From a virus, in the IMG/VR virus record IMGVR_UViG_3300030019_000003, positions 1-64,000 of that record: a DNA stretch of 64,000 nucleotides. One strand, 5' to 3'. The position numbers and the translations under genes are program-made. This document shows, in pieces, positions 51,000 through 57,782 of this stretch. Position 1 is the stretch's first letter. Each line of letters starts with the position of its first letter. The notes beneath the pieces are model-generated. The model did no database searches. It was not told where the DNA came from and was given only the letters and a program-made list of their open reading frames with translations.

Positions 51000-51902
51000 A
51001 TGAAAGTTCTTATTTATAAGAATAATAAACTAACTGTTGTTAACGATAATAAATCTGTATTTGAGATTACAGCAGAAAAGCCAGCGTACCTAACAGCAGA
51101 TGAAATTCATTACGATGTTTTTGTAAAAACGATTACTACTAATGGTGTGACGACAGATATGACAGAAAATGAAATGGCTGTCGCTGAGGCATTTATTACC
51201 AGTTATTCTTTTACAGTGGCTGCTGCTGATATAACTCCTGATAATAAAGTTTATTGTATCAATACTTATGGTGACTATATAGGATTTAAAGTACTCACTG
51301 CTAATGAAGTAGCTGTTGCAAGTATGCCACCACAAGATGGTAAACATTATTTTTGGGATGGTACAGATTGGAAACTAGCTATGGCTGTAAATGCATCAGG
51401 CACGTTAGCAGGTTTAGGTATAGTGGCTACTGGTACACAATTTTATATCGACGCCTCATTAGTGACTACAACTGGTTTAACAGCAGCCCAGACTTATGAT
51501 ATTGCAACTAAAACTATCGTCACAAACATGAGTGTAGCTAGAACAACTATTCTAAAATACATCCAACGCAGCATGTTTAACATTTATAATGACAATGTTG
51601 GTATATTGGGGATAAATGAAGTTAGCTCATTCACAACACAGGCTGCTGAAGCCAATGCCTGGAAAGCTGACAATACGTCTTTAACTCCATTTATAGACGT
51701 ATTGCTAATTAGACGTAGACAGAATGAAACTAAAGAAGAGTTGGTAAATAAGATTATTGCCAAGTCATCAGTTTACACACCGGTATCTGCTGGCATTACA
51801 GGTGATTTTCAATATTATAAAAAACGTATTGAAGATGCTACAGATTTACCTAGCTTAATAGTAATTCGTGATGAGTGGGATAAACTAGTGGAGGTAGCCT
51901 AA
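51000..51902 (+). CDS. Tail-fibre accessory protein, paralogue of 56741
   Basis: A 300-residue protein with a GAGGAG ribosome binding site. It begins MKVLIYKNNKLTVVND and has a central HYFWDGTDWKLA segment of the kind seen in tail-fibre assembly proteins. A C-terminal helical part follows (ITGDFQYYKKRIEDATDLP). The protein at 56741 shares start, middle and end. Its stop overlaps the next start (TAATG). It lies between the fibre and the glycine-rich protein, so a chaperone or connector is likely. Confidence 0.6.
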   Translation: MKVLIYKNNKLTVVNDNKSVFEITAEKPAYLTADEIHYDVFVKTITTNGVTTDMTENEMAVAEAFITSYSFTVAAADITPDNKVYCINTYGDYIGFKVLTANEVAVASMPPQDGKHYFWDGTDWKLAMAVNASGTLAGLGIVATGTQFYIDASLVTTTGLTAAQTYDIATKTIVTNMSVARTTILKYIQRSMFNIYNDNVGILGINEVSSFTTQAAEANAWKADNTSLTPFIDVLLIRRRQNETKEELVNKIIAKSSVYTPVSAGITGDFQYYKKRIEDATDLPSLIVIRDEWDKLVEVA

Positions 51903-52612
51903 TGTCTGGAATACTTGCTGACCTTGCCGGAAGTTCCGGCGGTATACCTACCTATACATTTACAAGTAACTATGACTGGGGTGATTTCAATCTTGCTACA
52001 GTATTTGATGCGCTAACGGTTGCTAATAGTAATAAATTCATAATCAACATACCTGCTGGTATTACAGTGTCAGGTGGTGGTGGCTCAGGTGTTCTTTCTG
52101 CTTTTAACTTTTCATATACTGAAGGTAAAACTATCACCATTAATAATGCTGGGGTTATTGCAGCCGGTAAGGGACAAGTTATTAACCAATATTTACGCGG
52201 AACACTTGGTAGCTATAACAACTATCAGTATGGTCCTTTTAATTGCTGGGGCGCTATGGCTAACCCTAATGGCGGATATGGTGGGTGTAGCGGTAATGGA
52301 TACTATATGATAGCAGATTCTGGACGGGCTTATGCTATTTGTGGAAATAAAGAGGTATATGCTGCGATGTCGTGGTCTTGGACTGATAATTCATCCATGC
52401 CGTCAATGCCTGCTAGTGGGTGCACTGGAATCTGGGGGTGGACATTGGTACAGGTTACAGGTGGCGAGGTGGTGAGTGACATTATCACAGGAAATAATAC
52501 TGTTAATGTTGGCGGCGCCAGGTATAATGGGTCTACCAGTGCTAATAATTATTATGAGTCTAATGAAAGTGCCAGATGTGATTGCGACTGTTGCGATTAT
52601 ACCAGCGGGTAA
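51902..52612 (+). CDS. Glycine-rich adhesin-like protein with Cys-rich tail
   Basis: A 236-residue protein. The N-terminal 90 residues are beta-rich (YTFTSNYDWGDFNLATVFD). Several glycine-rich stretches follow (SGGGGSG, PNGGYGGCSGNGYY), as in distal fibre adhesins of the T-even gp38 type. The last 20 residues hold CDCDCC, giving a striking Cys/Asp cluster (Cys residues at about 226, 228, 230 and 231). It is coupled to the accessory gene upstream and is followed by a hairpin, then the radical SAM gene 27 nt later. Most likely a fibre tip. A modified-peptide substrate of the downstream enzymes is a speculative alternative. Confidence 0.55.
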   Translation: MSGILADLAGSSGGIPTYTFTSNYDWGDFNLATVFDALTVANSNKFIINIPAGITVSGGGGSGVLSAFNFSYTEGKTITINNAGVIAAGKGQVINQYLRGTLGSYNNYQYGPFNCWGAMANPNGGYGGCSGNGYYMIADSGRAYAICGNKEVYAAMSWSWTDNSSMPSMPASGCTGIWGWTLVQVTGGEVVSDIITGNNTVNVGGARYNGSTSANNYYESNESARCDCDCCDYTSG

Positions 52613-52637: not shown

Positions 52638-52665
52638 TAGCGTCAGGGAGTATACTCCCTGACGC
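52638..52665 (+). terminator. Inverted repeat, likely terminator
   Basis: A perfect 28-nt palindrome (AGCGTCAGGGAGTA and complement) separates the glycine-rich protein gene from the radical SAM gene. Confidence 0.7.
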
Positions 52666-52692
52666 TGTAATAAGAAATTCAAAGGATGATTT

Positions 52693-53715
52693 ATGGAGGA
52701 GATTAAGACACCTACTGGTGGGACGGTTGTTATGTTAGTAGATACTTTTTGTGCAACAGGATGTAGCTATTGTCATTTAGCTACTAGAGAGAAAAACCCT
52801 GCTAGTTATGGTTATGAAAAATTGAATAATCTAATGAAATATATTAGACCAAAGTCTATTACGGTATATGCAGGGGATACATTTTATAATCACGATAACA
52901 TTAAGAAAGCCTATGAGTATGCGTTGTCTATACCTTCAGTACTTAAGGTCCAGTCTGTATCAGAAATTCAAAAGCTCTACAGGGATTTTGATATTAGAAC
53001 AGAAATTTTCGATATGTGCCTTTCTAGAGGTAAAAACTGTGGTGTGGAATTTAGTTTAGATCTGGCTGGTACTAAATCTGGAAACTATGTAGATTTATTA
53101 AATGCTTTTTATGCTGAAACGGGTACACCGATTTCTTTCACATGTGTTCTAACAATGGAACAAGTTTTGACACCAGATATTGATATTATTATTAAAGAGT
53201 ATATGAACACTTATAAAGGATTAAATTTTCTAGGCACTGTAGGGATTGCTCTAGATTATAATTCTGCTTTAACAAGGAGTTCTGATTATAACACCATTTT
53301 AAATCAGGTTGAGAAAGTATTTGCAGCTTTTTATGGGTCAGTCGATATTATGTCTTTTAAAGGTTTAAGACCGCAATTACTAAGTCAACGAGGATGTTTA
53401 TCTAGGCAAGCTCAAACATTAGTTAAATACGATGGTATGCTGTCAACATGTGGTAAAGTAAGACCTGATTTAGATATAACACCAATTTCTGCTTTAGATA
53501 TGTCAAGAGAGAATTATGAGACGTTTTATGACTCTAAATTAGTATTCCAAAAAGAAGTTAACTTTGATATCTGTGAAACGTGTGAAGCAAAGAATATTTG
53601 TGTTAGGTGTCCTAAGTTTATATTGCAGTCTAAGAATTTTGATGGTACCGCGGATACGTGTATGTTTTACAAATCAATGGTCGCTGTTGCAAAGAGACGC
53701 GGCATACTACTTTAA
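52693..53715 (+). CDS. Radical SAM enzyme with SPASM-type C-terminus
   Basis: A 340-residue protein with AAAGGATG upstream of the ATG. The SAM-binding [4Fe-4S] motif CxxxCxxC is at Cys20, Cys24 and Cys27 (CATGCSYC). Seven further Cys residues form a SPASM-like set: Cys235, then 12 residues, Gly248, four residues, Cys253, then Cys294, Cys297, Cys303, Cys306 and finally Cys323. The CX2CX5CX2C spacing is one residue shorter than the usual last step. SPASM enzymes modify peptides or proteins, and some act on sugars. It heads a run with a PP-loop enzyme, a methyltransferase and a symporter. The substrate is unknown. Confidence 0.85.
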   Translation: MEEIKTPTGGTVVMLVDTFCATGCSYCHLATREKNPASYGYEKLNNLMKYIRPKSITVYAGDTFYNHDNIKKAYEYALSIPSVLKVQSVSEIQKLYRDFDIRTEIFDMCLSRGKNCGVEFSLDLAGTKSGNYVDLLNAFYAETGTPISFTCVLTMEQVLTPDIDIIIKEYMNTYKGLNFLGTVGIALDYNSALTRSSDYNTILNQVEKVFAAFYGSVDIMSFKGLRPQLLSQRGCLSRQAQTLVKYDGMLSTCGKVRPDLDITPISALDMSRENYETFYDSKLVFQKEVNFDICETCEAKNICVRCPKFILQSKNFDGTADTCMFYKSMVAVAKRRGILL

Positions 53716-53738
53716 ACTGGTTAAGGGAGGGAGTTTAA

Positions 53739-54707
53739 ATGTACGATAAATGGGAAAATACCTTAAGGTATATGTTTAATGCCGCACAAGATAATAGTGC
53801 TCAATTTAAGTTAGCTAGGTTATTACATTTGAAATTAGCAGAGCATACCCTAGATAGAACAGGGACAACAGAGACTGAAAAAGACTATGTTATATGCAGC
53901 CCTATTTCAGAAGTATCTCTTAATCCAATTCCACTATCGGATATAATGGTAACTAGAGGATTAGAAATAATGAAAGACGAAACTAGAGATATTTATCTCA
54001 TGTGGAGTGGTGGCATGGATTCAACAGGAGCCTTTTATGCCTTATTGAATACTGGAAAACATTTTAATGTTATTTTTAATTCAAAATCTGTTAATGAGTA
54101 TGCTGATTTAGGTAACAAATTAATTAATGGTTATTTTGAAAATGTTACTACTATGTACAATCCTAAGAAATTTGATCTTCCTGAGTTTATAGCGAGTCAT
54201 CCTAATGCTACTATAGTAACAGGTGAACTTGGTGATCAAACCTTTGGTAGTGACAGTATGTTTAAATATTATCCTGAAGAAAGAAAACTAAATGTTCTAA
54301 CCGCTGTTGAAAATGAACTTTTAGATAAAGATGTTTTTGAATACACGGCACCCAAGGTTATGCTAGCTCTTGGATTACAAGATTTTAGTAATACAACTCT
54401 GGCAGCTTATTTGTGGGCATTAAACTTTATTTTTAAATATCAAAATGTACAGTTACGTTTTGGATATCTTAACATAATGACAAATGATCCATCTGGCAAA
54501 AATAACGGGCTACATTTCTACGACACAAAAGAATTTAATAGCTATGCTATGCTTAATTATAAAAATAATGCCAATTTTGAGAAAGATACTGATTACAAGA
54601 TGCCGTTAAAAGAATATATCTTTAGTCAAAACAATGATGCCGTCTACCGCGATACCAAAATTAAATTAGGTTCACTACGCTATACTGACTATAGTATAAG
54701 GAAATAG
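53739..54707 (+). CDS. PP-loop ATP pyrophosphatase, asparagine-synthase-like
   Basis: A 322-residue protein with AGGGAGG upstream of the ATG. The ATP-binding PP-loop SGGMDST spans residues 90-96, preceded by the strand DIYLMW. A second conserved loop, TGELGDQTFGS (161-171), corresponds to the acidic loop of asparagine-synthase-type enzymes. The N-terminal 80 residues do not form a glutaminase domain (there is no Cys2), so ammonia or another amine would be the donor. Such enzymes adenylate a carboxylate or amide to form amide, lactam or similar bonds. It sits 24 nt after the radical SAM gene and 2 nt before the methyltransferase gene. Confidence 0.8.
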   Translation: MYDKWENTLRYMFNAAQDNSAQFKLARLLHLKLAEHTLDRTGTTETEKDYVICSPISEVSLNPIPLSDIMVTRGLEIMKDETRDIYLMWSGGMDSTGAFYALLNTGKHFNVIFNSKSVNEYADLGNKLINGYFENVTTMYNPKKFDLPEFIASHPNATIVTGELGDQTFGSDSMFKYYPEERKLNVLTAVENELLDKDVFEYTAPKVMLALGLQDFSNTTLAAYLWALNFIFKYQNVQLRFGYLNIMTNDPSGKNNGLHFYDTKEFNSYAMLNYKNNANFEKDTDYKMPLKEYIFSQNNDAVYRDTKIKLGSLRYTDYSIRK

Positions 54708-54709
54708 AC

Positions 54710-55444
54710 ATGATTCAGAATATACCATCTGAATTTATTTTATCGGATCCTAGAAAAGATAGAGGTAATGCTAAATTAACCACACATAGTTTAATGGCTC
54801 GTTGGGAGGGGTTCACAAATAATATAAATCTTAAAGATAAGGTAATTCTTGATTTAGGTTGCGCTAACGCTGCTTTCGGTTATTTATCACTTGAGGCTGG
54901 CTGCAAGAATTATACTGGTGTTGAGGTTCAAAATGAATACTATAATACTGGTACGCACCTATTAAAAAAATACTACCCTGCGGGAAAATGGTCTATTAAA
55001 AAAACGGATATTACATCTTTTTTTAATACGCAACAGGGTGAATATGATATAGTTTTTGCCTGTGGTGTGATATACGGGGTATTTGATATAATAAGCTTAC
55101 TTAAAAACTTATTTAAAGTTACAAAAGAAACCCTAATAATAGAAAGCGTGAACCCACTTTCTGAAATAGATAGCCCGGCTATTGAGGTAACCTATGCAAC
55201 TATGGTAGATCACACGGATATTTTATACCCACTCCATGGTATTGGTTTTTTACCTAATTTTAAAGCACTAGCTTTAATTTCAGCTGTTTTTGGATTTGAA
55301 GCAGAGCTTATTGATTTATATCTACCAGAATATAATCAGATTCGCCGTAAGAAAAACAAAAGATATTTTTGTAAGTTTACTAATAAAAAACACCAAACAG
55401 CATGCGCACTAGAGACAATGATAATAAATAGGGGGAAAGAGTGA
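54710..55444 (+). CDS. Class I SAM-dependent methyltransferase
   Basis: A 244-residue protein. Motif I is VILDLGCANAAFG (45-57), followed by the acidic ribose-binding residue in VEVQ (Glu72). Motif IV-like YDIVFACGVIYGV and a downstream TLIIESVNP strand complete a Rossmann methyltransferase. The layout resembles the family that includes CmoB-like and sugar- or peptide-modifying methyltransferases. The substrate cannot be deduced. It overlaps the symporter start by 4 nt and follows the PP-loop gene by 2 nt. Confidence 0.8.
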   Translation: MIQNIPSEFILSDPRKDRGNAKLTTHSLMARWEGFTNNINLKDKVILDLGCANAAFGYLSLEAGCKNYTGVEVQNEYYNTGTHLLKKYYPAGKWSIKKTDITSFFNTQQGEYDIVFACGVIYGVFDIISLLKNLFKVTKETLIIESVNPLSEIDSPAIEVTYATMVDHTDILYPLHGIGFLPNFKALALISAVFGFEAELIDLYLPEYNQIRRKKNKRYFCKFTNKKHQTACALETMIINRGKE

Positions 55445-56721
55445 ATATAGAGAAATTCTTAGTTGCAAACAGAACATTAACATTCTTGTTAACATCCATT
55501 TCTATTGCATCTGCGTGGATATGGGCACCTGCATTATTTGTGTCTGCAACGGTAGCCTATAAATGGGGACTAGAAGGGTTATTGTGGTTTCTTATACCTA
55601 ACGTTTTAACATTAGTATTATTTGCTTTTGTTGGAAAAGTTCTAAGAGATAAGGATGAACGTGGGTATACCCTTTCGCAGTATATAAAAGAAAGAACCTC
55701 AAACAGATTACAGTATTTTTATATATTTGAATTACTGCTAATATCGGTATGCTGTATCGCAGTTCAACTGATTGCGGGTGGTAAACTACTATCTGGATTA
55801 TTACCTGTACTAAGTTATTTTGAATGGGTTGCAGTTCTTGGTGGCGTACCTGCTTTATATACTTTCTTTTATGGGATTAAGTCATCTGTTCTTATGGATA
55901 TTATACATTACACACTAATGTTCATATGCCTGGTAGGGATTACATTATTTTTAATATTTAGTAAACATTTAAGCAGTATACCTTTTACAGGTGTTGTTAA
56001 TACATCCAGTCTTAGTATCGCTTTAAGTTTTGGAATACCTACTGCTATAGGGCTATTAGCCGGAGCATTTGGTTCACAGGACTTTTATCAGCGTGCGTAT
56101 GCCGTTGTTAAAGAAGATGTTTTTAAATCCTATCTTGCTGGAGCAGGATTATTTATAGTCATACCTATCATGGTATCATTATTAGGCTTTACAGCTATTA
56201 ACGAAGGTTTTACTATTAAAGATATTGGTATGGTTAACTTTGAAACACTAGGATTTTTAAATATACCTTTAGCATCAACAGCACTAGCTATTGCCATTCT
56301 CTGTGGATTAACGTCGACTATTGATTCTTCTCAAACTTCGGTATCGGCTATATTCGGAAATGATATTTCAAAAATATTTTACGGTGACAGCAAGGTTTGG
56401 TTAGCAAGACTGGGTATTATCATAGTTACGGTGTTAGCTATCATTATTGCTAATACGGGTATTACTATTTTACAACTGTTCTTAACTTATGGTGCTATAA
56501 GATCATCGGTATTCTTAGTCTCATTGATGGCGGTATTAACAGATAGGATACTAAATAGCAACGCTGTTGTATACTCATTATTAGCTGTTGTTTTAATATT
56601 AGTACCTATTAATATTTATGCTATCCTAAATAAGATAGAAATACTACAGACAACGATGGCTATTTTGATTGTTGGCATACCAGGTATTGTTACCTATATA
56701 ACAAGTAAACAAAAAATATAA
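55441..56721 (+). CDS. Sodium:solute symporter (SSS family)
   Basis: A 426-residue integral membrane protein, read from a GTG preceded by GGGGGAAAGA, with about 11-12 hydrophobic helices. Family hallmarks are the GSQDFYQRAYAVVKED segment near residue 210 (SSS proteins have a D-x-x-Q-R motif after a helix) and TSTIDSSQTSVSAIFGND near 290, matching the conserved Ser/Asp pattern of helix 8 that lines the sodium site. It would import a small solute into the infected cell with Na+. Being coupled to three enzymes, it may supply their substrate. A symporter is very unusual in a phage. Confidence 0.8.
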   Translation: MNIEKFLVANRTLTFLLTSISIASAWIWAPALFVSATVAYKWGLEGLLWFLIPNVLTLVLFAFVGKVLRDKDERGYTLSQYIKERTSNRLQYFYIFELLLISVCCIAVQLIAGGKLLSGLLPVLSYFEWVAVLGGVPALYTFFYGIKSSVLMDIIHYTLMFICLVGITLFLIFSKHLSSIPFTGVVNTSSLSIALSFGIPTAIGLLAGAFGSQDFYQRAYAVVKEDVFKSYLAGAGLFIVIPIMVSLLGFTAINEGFTIKDIGMVNFETLGFLNIPLASTALAIAILCGLTSTIDSSQTSVSAIFGNDISKIFYGDSKVWLARLGIIIVTVLAIIIANTGITILQLFLTYGAIRSSVFLVSLMAVLTDRILNSNAVVYSLLAVVLILVPINIYAILNKIEILQTTMAILIVGIPGIVTYITSKQKI

Positions 56722-56740: not shown

Positions 56741-57688
56741 ATGGCTATAAAAGTACTTATATACGAAAATGGCTTACTTACAGTAACACGTGACTACAGA
56801 AGTGCTGTTAGGATACCAGCAGAAAAACCTAATTTTATTATTGGTGACAGATTTTATTACAGTTCTGAAAAGAAAAGTATCGTTGAAGACTGGAATAATA
56901 CAGCTGAGCTAACAGAGTGTGAAATAAACGCTGCAGAAGAGTTTATCAATAGTTATGTTTTCGCTCCTATTGTTACTATCCCTACTACGATGCCGATGAG
57001 CGACATTAAGGAGCTTGTATTGGTAGATAGCAAGGGTGCCTATAAAGGTACCAGTTTTGCTAATCCTGGGCTTATAGTTGTTCCATTGATGCCTACAGAT
57101 CCTAATAAGTATTATTGGGATTTTGAAACAAATAACTGGATAGAAGGATATACTATAGTAACTGAAACAGGGATGCTAGTAGGAAGCACTATTCTCACAG
57201 GGGAGACCTATTCTTATATACCCGCTTCGTTAGTAGATAAAAATCTGTGTTCTATGTGCCAAGTCTATGATGCCACTCTTAAGAGAGTAGTCATTGACAT
57301 CGCTAAGTATAAGATGAAAGCTTATAAAACAGTATCCGAGGCTATGAGTAAAGCCATTGATACACGTTTAGATAAACCTGGTAAATATGAGGTAGTATCA
57401 TTCTTTGTACAAGTGGCTGAAGCTAAATCTTATTTAACCTTTAAAGATTTTCCAACACCTTATTTAAGTACGTTATTAGCTAGAAGAAAACGTATAATAG
57501 AGGGTAGACCTGAAACCATGGATGATCTTGTTGATAAGATCATTAAGAAGTCAATTCCGTTTGAAATATTTCATGCTGGTGTACTTGGTGAATACCACAG
57601 GCTAAAAGATCTTATTGATAATGCCGAGACGGTAGAAGAGATAGATGCCATAACAGAGACAATGGATTTTTTAGAAAACAAAGAATAA
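56741..57688 (+). CDS. Tail-fibre accessory protein, paralogue of 51000
   Basis: A 315-residue protein that parallels the one at 51000 along its length: start VLIYENGLLTVTRDYRS, middle YYWDFETNNWIEG, and C-terminal helical part LGEYHRLKDLIDNAETVEE. It follows the symporter by 19 nt. A hairpin separates it from the next giant fibre gene. The two paralogues flank the enzyme cassette. A fibre chaperone or connector role is inferred. Confidence 0.6.
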   Translation: MAIKVLIYENGLLTVTRDYRSAVRIPAEKPNFIIGDRFYYSSEKKSIVEDWNNTAELTECEINAAEEFINSYVFAPIVTIPTTMPMSDIKELVLVDSKGAYKGTSFANPGLIVVPLMPTDPNKYYWDFETNNWIEGYTIVTETGMLVGSTILTGETYSYIPASLVDKNLCSMCQVYDATLKRVVIDIAKYKMKAYKTVSEAMSKAIDTRLDKPGKYEVVSFFVQVAEAKSYLTFKDFPTPYLSTLLARRKRIIEGRPETMDDLVDKIIKKSIPFEIFHAGVLGEYHRLKDLIDNAETVEEIDAITETMDFLENKE

Positions 57689-57694
57689 TTAAAC

Positions 57695-57728
57695 TTAACA
57701 AGAAACACGTAATCGTGTTTCTTGTTAA
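57695..57728 (+). terminator. Inverted repeat, likely terminator
   Basis: A 15-bp perfect stem (TTAACAAGAAACACG, loop TAAT, complement) follows the stop of the accessory gene. Confidence 0.7.
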
Positions 57729-57782
57729 GACTGTTTTCTATGATTAAACGCGGTTTAATAAGACTTTTATTAGGAGAAATCA

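Follow-up and report, generated by a model that had tools for sequence, protein, structure and literature searches.

The peptide-maturing radical S-adenosylmethionine (SAM) enzymes of the SPASM type include the SCIFF/ranthipeptide and sactipeptide maturases. Several arrangements that resemble parts of the locus considered here have been described in phages. In the jumbo phages Y3 and AD1, AsnB-like and methyltransferase genes are neighbours or lie a short distance apart, and a radical SAM gene is present at another site (PMC6143709). The host-recognition clusters of pelagimyophages acquire radical SAM cassettes and glycosyltransferases (PMC7029224). The genome paper on the Campylobacter phage CP220 counted 11 radical SAM proteins, noted an in-gene repeat and regarded the enzymes as metabolic; this account of CP220/CPt10 makes no connection between radical SAM and Cys-rich proteins (PMC2853527). 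Here, we analyze a four-gene cassette in the virus contig IMGVR_UViG_3300030019_000003 (252,159 bp), the first 64,000 nucleotides of which are the window to which all coordinates without a locus label refer. The cassette occupies positions 52693-56721 and encodes, on the plus strand, a radical SAM enzyme with a SPASM-type C-terminus (52693-53715; 340 amino acids, aa), an AsnB-like PP-loop ATP enzyme without a glutaminase domain (53739-54707; 322 aa), a class I SAM methyltransferase distantly similar to CmoB (54710-55444; 244 aa) and a sodium:solute symporter of the SSF family (55441-56721; 426 aa, GTG start). A sequence-only reading had suggested that these genes form one compact biosynthetic pathway. 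The four same-strand open reading frames (ORFs) on which that reading was built are all in place. The first gap measures 23 nt; the last three genes are spaced as that reading described, by 2 nt and then by an overlap of 4 nt (GTGA).

A genomic pair of PP-loop and symporter genes

The four genes are best read as two joined modules rather than as one proven pathway. Among the loci fetched for comparison (L numbers below), the complete set was found nowhere else, and only its two-gene core of PP-loop and SSF genes was seen, so that the neighbourhood search proposed along with the pathway came out positive for half of the genes. The radical SAM and methyltransferase genes were not seen together with the other two in these loci, apart from a methyltransferase homologue near an SSF gene in L030 and other radical SAM genes near PP-loop genes in L150 and L197, which leaves the single four-gene pathway unsupported.

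Clustering exceeds chance for two of the four genes: the pairing of PP-loop enzyme and SSF symporter genes is real and recurs in the genomes of both phages and bacteria. Chance is an unlikely source of this pairing because it was recovered from both search directions. Starting from an alignment of phage symporters, 79 bacterial loci were selected on SSF similarity alone. The window's own PP-loop family stands beside the SSF gene in four of these (L043, L071, L072 and L084), full asparagine-synthase-type genes adjoin the symporter in 4 of the 79, and genes for phosphoadenosine phosphosulfate (PAPS) reductase and/or ParB-like proteins (IbrA/IbrB-like) adjoin it in about 60. The PP-loop family is rare, no full-length member having been found in some 777 other genomes of Pseudomonadota and Patescibacteria, known holders excepted. 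The four bacterial symporters linked to PP-loop genes form, together with the symporter of L030, one clade (support 100/99), and therefore represent one inherited or transferred association, not four independent ones; the phage symporters are long branches, and their placement in the tree is unsure. In the converse search, with phage loci picked on the PP-loop protein alone, a symporter directly follows the PP-loop gene in L123 and L155 and is located nearby in L197. A literature search with incomplete coverage turned up no description of this symporter paired with PP-loop enzymes, and the novelty of the pairing is thus unproven.

That the cassette ends in a Na+-coupled transporter, as first proposed, is borne out at the family level, the SSF assignment being clear from PF00474 (61.7 bits vs the cut-off of 22.8, covering profile positions 1-399 of 406), and transport is predicted accordingly from this membership. 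The symporter lacks the first transmembrane helix found in its relatives, and the three phage symporters that directly follow a PP-loop gene (55441-56721 in the window, L123:10756-11976 and L155:10983-12347) all begin past this helix. Elsewhere in the family, genes of a phrog_20720-like SSF subfamily (L029-L107, L020-L028) adjoin PAPS-reductase/ParB (IbrA/IbrB-like) genes in the majority of loci from Clostridia, Treponema and gut phages and frequently overlap the gene that follows, and in several bacterial phyla loci with both SSF and full asparagine-synthase-type genes also encode a zinc-ribbon-like protein that has a Toprim-like match (L029:7086-8075, L033:1665-2657, L101:460-1431, L034:8695-9735).

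The assignment of the PP-loop protein as an asparagine-synthase-like ATP enzyme also stands, with motifs and structural matches in agreement, although the protein matches no Pfam family at E<=0.1, PF00733 included. It contains SGGMDST and TGELGDQTFGS, which correspond to the PP-loop and GExxDxxFG motifs of the synthetases, and lacks the N-terminal class II glutaminase domain. An AlphaFold2 model (mean predicted local distance difference test score, pLDDT, of 88) retrieves human and E. coli asparagine synthetases as the top matches in the Protein Data Bank (PDB), followed lower in the same list by beta-lactam synthetase, carbapenam synthetase and TtuA-type sulfurtransferases, although template modelling (TM) scores are only 0.2-0.4 in this list; in a viral structure library, TM-scores of 0.6-0.7 were obtained against phage proteins that bear the name asparagine synthase. 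Residues invariant over 45 aligned members include SGGxDST, E120, D166 and three lysines, K287 and K309 among them. The same alignment contains no conserved Cys, and a TtuA-type role in sulfur transfer was judged unlikely on this ground. The conserved features suggest ATP-dependent acyl-adenylation followed by amide formation, in which the nucleophile is probably not ammonia that the same protein has taken from glutamine and channelled. Single-protein scans found no relatives of this enzyme, and the search succeeded only once an alignment of true relatives existed; it then recovered 338 relatives in phage contigs, of which 80 were kept. A search for a second PP-loop gene in the genome of the window phage found none. 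In a Xanthobacteraceae genome (L121:8128-10178), a second member of the PP-loop family adjoins oxygenase-like and sulfotransferase-like genes.

The radical SAM enzyme, the methyltransferase and the Cys-rich neighbour

The radical SAM enzyme is an isolated, divergent member of its family, given that single-sequence, tblastn and degenerate-pattern scans of phage, viral, plasmid and bacterial collections recovered no relative; a homologue was likewise not present in the 21 genomes tested. The protein scores below the curated cut-offs of both relevant models, namely, Radical_SAM PF04055 (E=3.5e-4, 21.2 bits vs 29.5) and SPASM TIGR04085 (E=0.007, 16.8 bits vs 27), and the label "SPASM-type" therefore rests on the Cys pattern. 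This pattern is complete, as the sequence-only reading had it in pointing to seven C-terminal Cys. The CX3CX2C cluster motif near the N-terminus (C20-ATG-C24-SY-C27) is intact and shared with the enzymes of the marine phage contig L150. The seven C-terminal residues (C235, C253, C294, C297, C303, C306 and C323) follow the arrangement CX12GX4C...CX2CX5CX2C...C; the SPASM auxiliary-cluster pattern is CX9-15GX4C...CX2CX5CX3C...C, so that the fourth spacing is X2 here vs X3 in general. In an alignment with two radical SAM enzymes from L150, all of these cluster-motif and C-terminal Cys except C306 fall in invariant columns. The protein Y3_274 of jumbo phage Y3 was tested as an orthologue and rejected.

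The methyltransferase, the third enzyme of the original proposal, is confirmed as a class I enzyme that passes PF13847, and no more specific assignment follows from the CmoB equivalog model TIGR00452, on which it scores 36.5 bits vs the required 275. One homologue, in L030 (29%, E=2e-15), has a symporter gene from the PP-loop-linked clade in its vicinity; between the two, on the opposite strand, lies an AsnB-like ORF that is divergent and truncated. No homologue of the window methyltransferase was found beside phage PP-loop genes in the loci fetched.

Immediately upstream of the radical SAM gene lies a gene for a Gly-rich tail protein of 236 aa (51902-52612, plus strand) that resembles Gp38 adhesins, with CDCDCC within its C-terminus, ARCDCDCCDYTSG, a candidate substrate of the radical SAM enzyme. 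Among the 259 ORFs of the phage, this is the only one with two CxC motifs and the one richest in CxC, and, given the composition of this proteome, a run of four Cys within six residues would be expected about 0.01 times. Over its residues 16-88, the protein aligns to adhesins of the Gp38 type whose genes, in other phages, adjoin PP-loop genes (hhalign P=0.0014; probability 18%, which is weak statistical support for adhesin identity), and a relationship to these adhesins, while suggested by this comparison of sequence profiles, is not firm. A cluster for a ribosomally synthesized and post-translationally modified peptide (RiPP) in the usual sense, one of the products considered at the outset, is not what the locus looks like: the 80-nt and 23-nt gaps are too small for a precursor-peptide ORF, and the adjacent candidate is the 236-aa tail protein.

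A search begun with one of the L150 radical SAM enzymes uncovered parallel pairs. L150 encodes two SPASM-type enzymes, the second of which adjoins, with the genes overlapping, an S74-type tail protein carrying DCICNSDCSCNLVCACHNDCGCN. In CP220, a radical SAM gene lies no more than about 2.2 kb from a protein with 35 Cys and CNYCTCD repeats (gp140, L203:3182-4786); these repeats arise from a 21-bp DNA repeat. The jumbo phages EaH2 and CR5 possess two radical SAM genes near a gene for a 68-69-aa peptide, which in EaH2 is Cys-rich, with NCGGSCSWTCSGGC, and in CR5 holds just two Cys. In both genomes (L205:4937-6963 and L204:4960-6981, respectively), the peptide gene is upstream of the radical SAM pair, resembling a small RiPP cassette; the tail of the EaH2 peptide is rich in Cys, Gly and Ser, and the first enzyme of the CR5 pair is annotated without the cluster motif. 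Finally, in the faecal phage contig L206, a radical SAM gene is two genes away from a protein carrying GCRSSCTGLCSSACYSGCSGCSGGCS. The occurrence of SPASM enzymes close to peptides or virion proteins that are Cys-rich is thus repeated in four further phage settings, which is a lead, not a test. The same search recovered a SCIFF-like peptide with its SPASM enzyme in L211, which serves as an internal comparison; the radical SAM contigs L207-L211, labelled "faecal phage", are bacterial-looking and were left out as phage evidence. No account of radical SAM enzymes paired with Cys-rich virion proteins was found in a literature search of incomplete coverage, and novelty is, here too, unproven.

The neighbouring genes are fibre genes, with F5/8 type C domains, RCC1 repeats and tail-fibre PHROG matches, and the base composition of the cassette is the same as that of the remaining window. 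The same-strand run extends past the symporter through a phrog_2618 protein (56741-57688, plus strand), the final gene of the unit and a paralogue (E=6e-38) of another plus-strand gene, 51000-51902; the description of both as tail-fibre-assembly-like (Tfa-like) is inferred from layout, phrog_2618 itself having no assigned function. Strong hairpins flank the unit, one of 12 bp at 52639-52666, between the adhesin-like and radical SAM genes, and one of 16 bp at 57694-57729, after the unit; a clear plus-strand terminator was seen at neither, and 52639-52666 has no T-run downstream on that strand. The contig encodes a multisubunit RNA polymerase (beta subunit, phrog_3015, E=1e-136), which in a record of this length identifies a phiKZ-like jumbo phage, and the closest relatives of its helicase are chiefly from jumbo phages.

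Proposed fibre-tip maturation and its rivals

A modification of fibre proteins had been among the functions suggested for the cassette, and it is a reasonable one, since links between PP-loop genes and tail fibres recur. In L155, N-terminal residues 80-158 of the PP-loop ORF match tail-fibre-assembly PHROGs (phrog_4912, E=4.5e-9; phrog_8746), and this fibre-assembly domain reads into the PP-loop domain without a stop, with the symporter next; the gene order is a fibre gene, one other gene, PP-loop, SSF. Three consecutive genes overlap in L123, encoding in turn a Gly-rich fibre protein, the PP-loop enzyme and the SSF symporter. In L156, L163, L176, L184 and L195, the PP-loop gene is immediately preceded by a gene for a protein resembling Gp38-type adhesins (cluster 3, with matches to PF05268 and tail-fibre PHROGs), and in the phage contig L159 it is immediately preceded by a gene whose product matches the window protein 56741-57688 (phmmer E=2e-4).

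Tentatively, we favor the possibility that the cassette matures a tail-fibre tip or tail-tip adhesin during infection, inside the host cell, where a solute brought in from outside would supply the amide-forming enzyme. Gene order, family membership, the pairing and one domain fusion are the observed steps from which substrates, transport, modification and timing can be sketched. The symporter would import a small solute; the PP-loop enzyme would adenylate a carboxylate with ATP and couple an amine, like asparagine and beta-lactam synthetases, without a glutamine-fed ammonia source; the methyltransferase would methylate the product of this step; and the fibre tip would serve as target or acceptor. 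As a separate activity, the SPASM enzyme might modify the upstream adhesin-like protein at its Cys-rich C-terminal end (CDCDCC), perhaps forming thioether or related cross-links. Rather doubtful, at this point, is a decorated receptor-binding tip, in which an imported environmental small molecule would be attached to the adhesin by the AsnB-like enzyme guided by a fibre-assembly domain, with the SPASM enzyme cross-linking the Cys-rich tail.

Several points weigh against fibre-tip maturation. An SSF gene is near just 3 of the approximately 49 non-redundant phage PP-loop loci; no radical SAM gene of the window type was found adjoining PP-loop/SSF genes elsewhere, other radical SAM genes being near PP-loop genes in L150 and L197; the AlphaFold2 model of the radical SAM enzyme was discarded (pLDDT 45); the adhesin match is statistically weak, as indicated above; and the Cys-rich comparison was post hoc, begun once the sequence had been seen. 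Homology of the 56741-57688 protein to the bacterial PP-loop partner of about 230 aa was not established either (P=0.033, probability 1.5%). Furthermore, of 77 scanned neighbours of PP-loop relatives, 11 are Cupin_2 proteins, and solute-binding proteins of the DctP and TctC types, an epimerase and an aminotransferase also occur, with PP-loop relatives in many marine T4-like phages adjoining DctP and many others adjoining a cupin; such neighbours, the sugar- or amino-transfer enzymes included, fit small-molecule metabolism equally well or better. In marine T4-like contigs (L127, L135, L150 and others), the DctP-type proteins that adjoin PP-loop genes, often in tandem, have no obvious signal peptide, and in L197 a TctC-type protein is close to PP-loop genes.

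The chief rival, and one nearly equal in plausibility, is accordingly a small-molecule metabolic cassette, in which the symporter would import an organic acid, an amine or a similar compound, the AsnB-like enzyme would amidate it and the methyltransferase and radical SAM enzyme would modify it further, to the benefit of infected-cell metabolism, the fibre region being only a variable cargo slot. Besides the neighbours just listed, it gains from the roughly 60 of the 79 SSF loci in which the symporter has PAPS-reductase/ParB genes as partners, where the PP-loop enzyme is of another kind and no connection to fibres was seen, and from the precedent of radical SAM cassettes in pelagimyophage host-recognition clusters (PMC7029224). 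It has to contend with the tail-fibre-assembly fusion in L155, with the adhesin-like genes immediately upstream in several lineages and with the window phage itself, in whose genome a profile search found no relative of cupin or DctP.

It is unlikely that the radical SAM enzyme and the methyltransferase are morons independent of the PP-loop/SSF pair that sit side by side and perform separate jobs. The failure to find the four-gene set elsewhere and the failure of tblastn, degenerate-pattern scans and the 21-genome survey to recover the radical SAM enzyme are compatible with such an accident; the tight same-strand spacing with its 4-nt overlap, the bounding of the unit by hairpins and the L030 methyltransferase homologue near a same-clade SSF gene and a divergent AsnB-like ORF are not what it would lead one to expect. 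Highly improbable is the modification of a host surface glycan that would exclude competing phages, for which surface-altering genes in pelagimyophage host-recognition clusters offer a precedent (PMC7029224). The unit holds no glycosyltransferase, acyltransferase or flippase, and its symporter comes from an importer family. Least credible of all is nucleic-acid base modification by a queuosine-type PP-loop enzyme, the radical SAM enzyme and a CmoB-like methyltransferase, which would either protect the DNA of the phage or change tRNA: a weak match to QueC-like PHROG proteins (E=4e-5) and the distant CmoB likeness of the methyltransferase are outweighed by the first rank of asparagine synthetases among PP-loop fold matches, a SPASM C-terminus, which QueE is not known to have, the fibre-region location and an SSF symporter, which, to our knowledge, no queuosine-type base-modification pathway includes.

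Comparison with known systems

Little work has been devoted to the enzymatic modification of phage receptor-binding proteins. The amide-forming enzymes considered here, a family widespread in phages that is tied to fibre genes, sometimes comes with a transporter and is once fused to a fibre-assembly domain, provide a concrete and testable lead, with a bearing on the annotation of many phage auxiliary genes labelled "asparagine synthase" or "QueC-like". The recurrence of SPASM/Cys-rich neighbourhoods in several phage groups, cultured ones included, makes radical-SAM-modified virions directly testable, and a decorated tip, if real, would represent a new class of virion protein modification.

With asparagine synthetase B and the beta-lactam and carbapenam synthetases, the window PP-loop enzyme shares the AANH/PP-loop fold and the SGGxDS and GExxDxxFG motifs, but it is only about 320 aa long, lacks the N-terminal glutaminase domain and shows 10-14% identity and low TM-scores of 0.3-0.4. 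Y3 and AD1 are also jumbo phages that carry AsnB-like, methyltransferase and radical SAM genes, but their PP-loop enzymes belong to another family, phrog_26038; a test of whether their methyltransferase and asparagine synthase genes are homologues of the window genes led to rejection, there being no usable similarity to the window proteins. The symporter resembles those of the PanF/DUR3 type in that the SSF domain extends across nearly its full length and DUR3 provides the nearest solved structures by sequence, but it differs from them in lacking the first transmembrane helix and in scoring below the PanF equivalog cut-off. With the SPASM peptide maturases, the radical SAM enzyme has in common the seven-Cys pattern and a Cys-rich partner, whereas its candidate substrate is a tail protein of 236 aa rather than a short precursor peptide, and its similarity to the named maturases is very weak. 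Closer in setting, although no PP-loop/SSF pair is seen alongside them, are the radical SAM proteins of CP220/CPt10, EaH2 and CR5, which, like the one described here, are of the SPASM type and are encoded near Cys-rich virion proteins or peptides.

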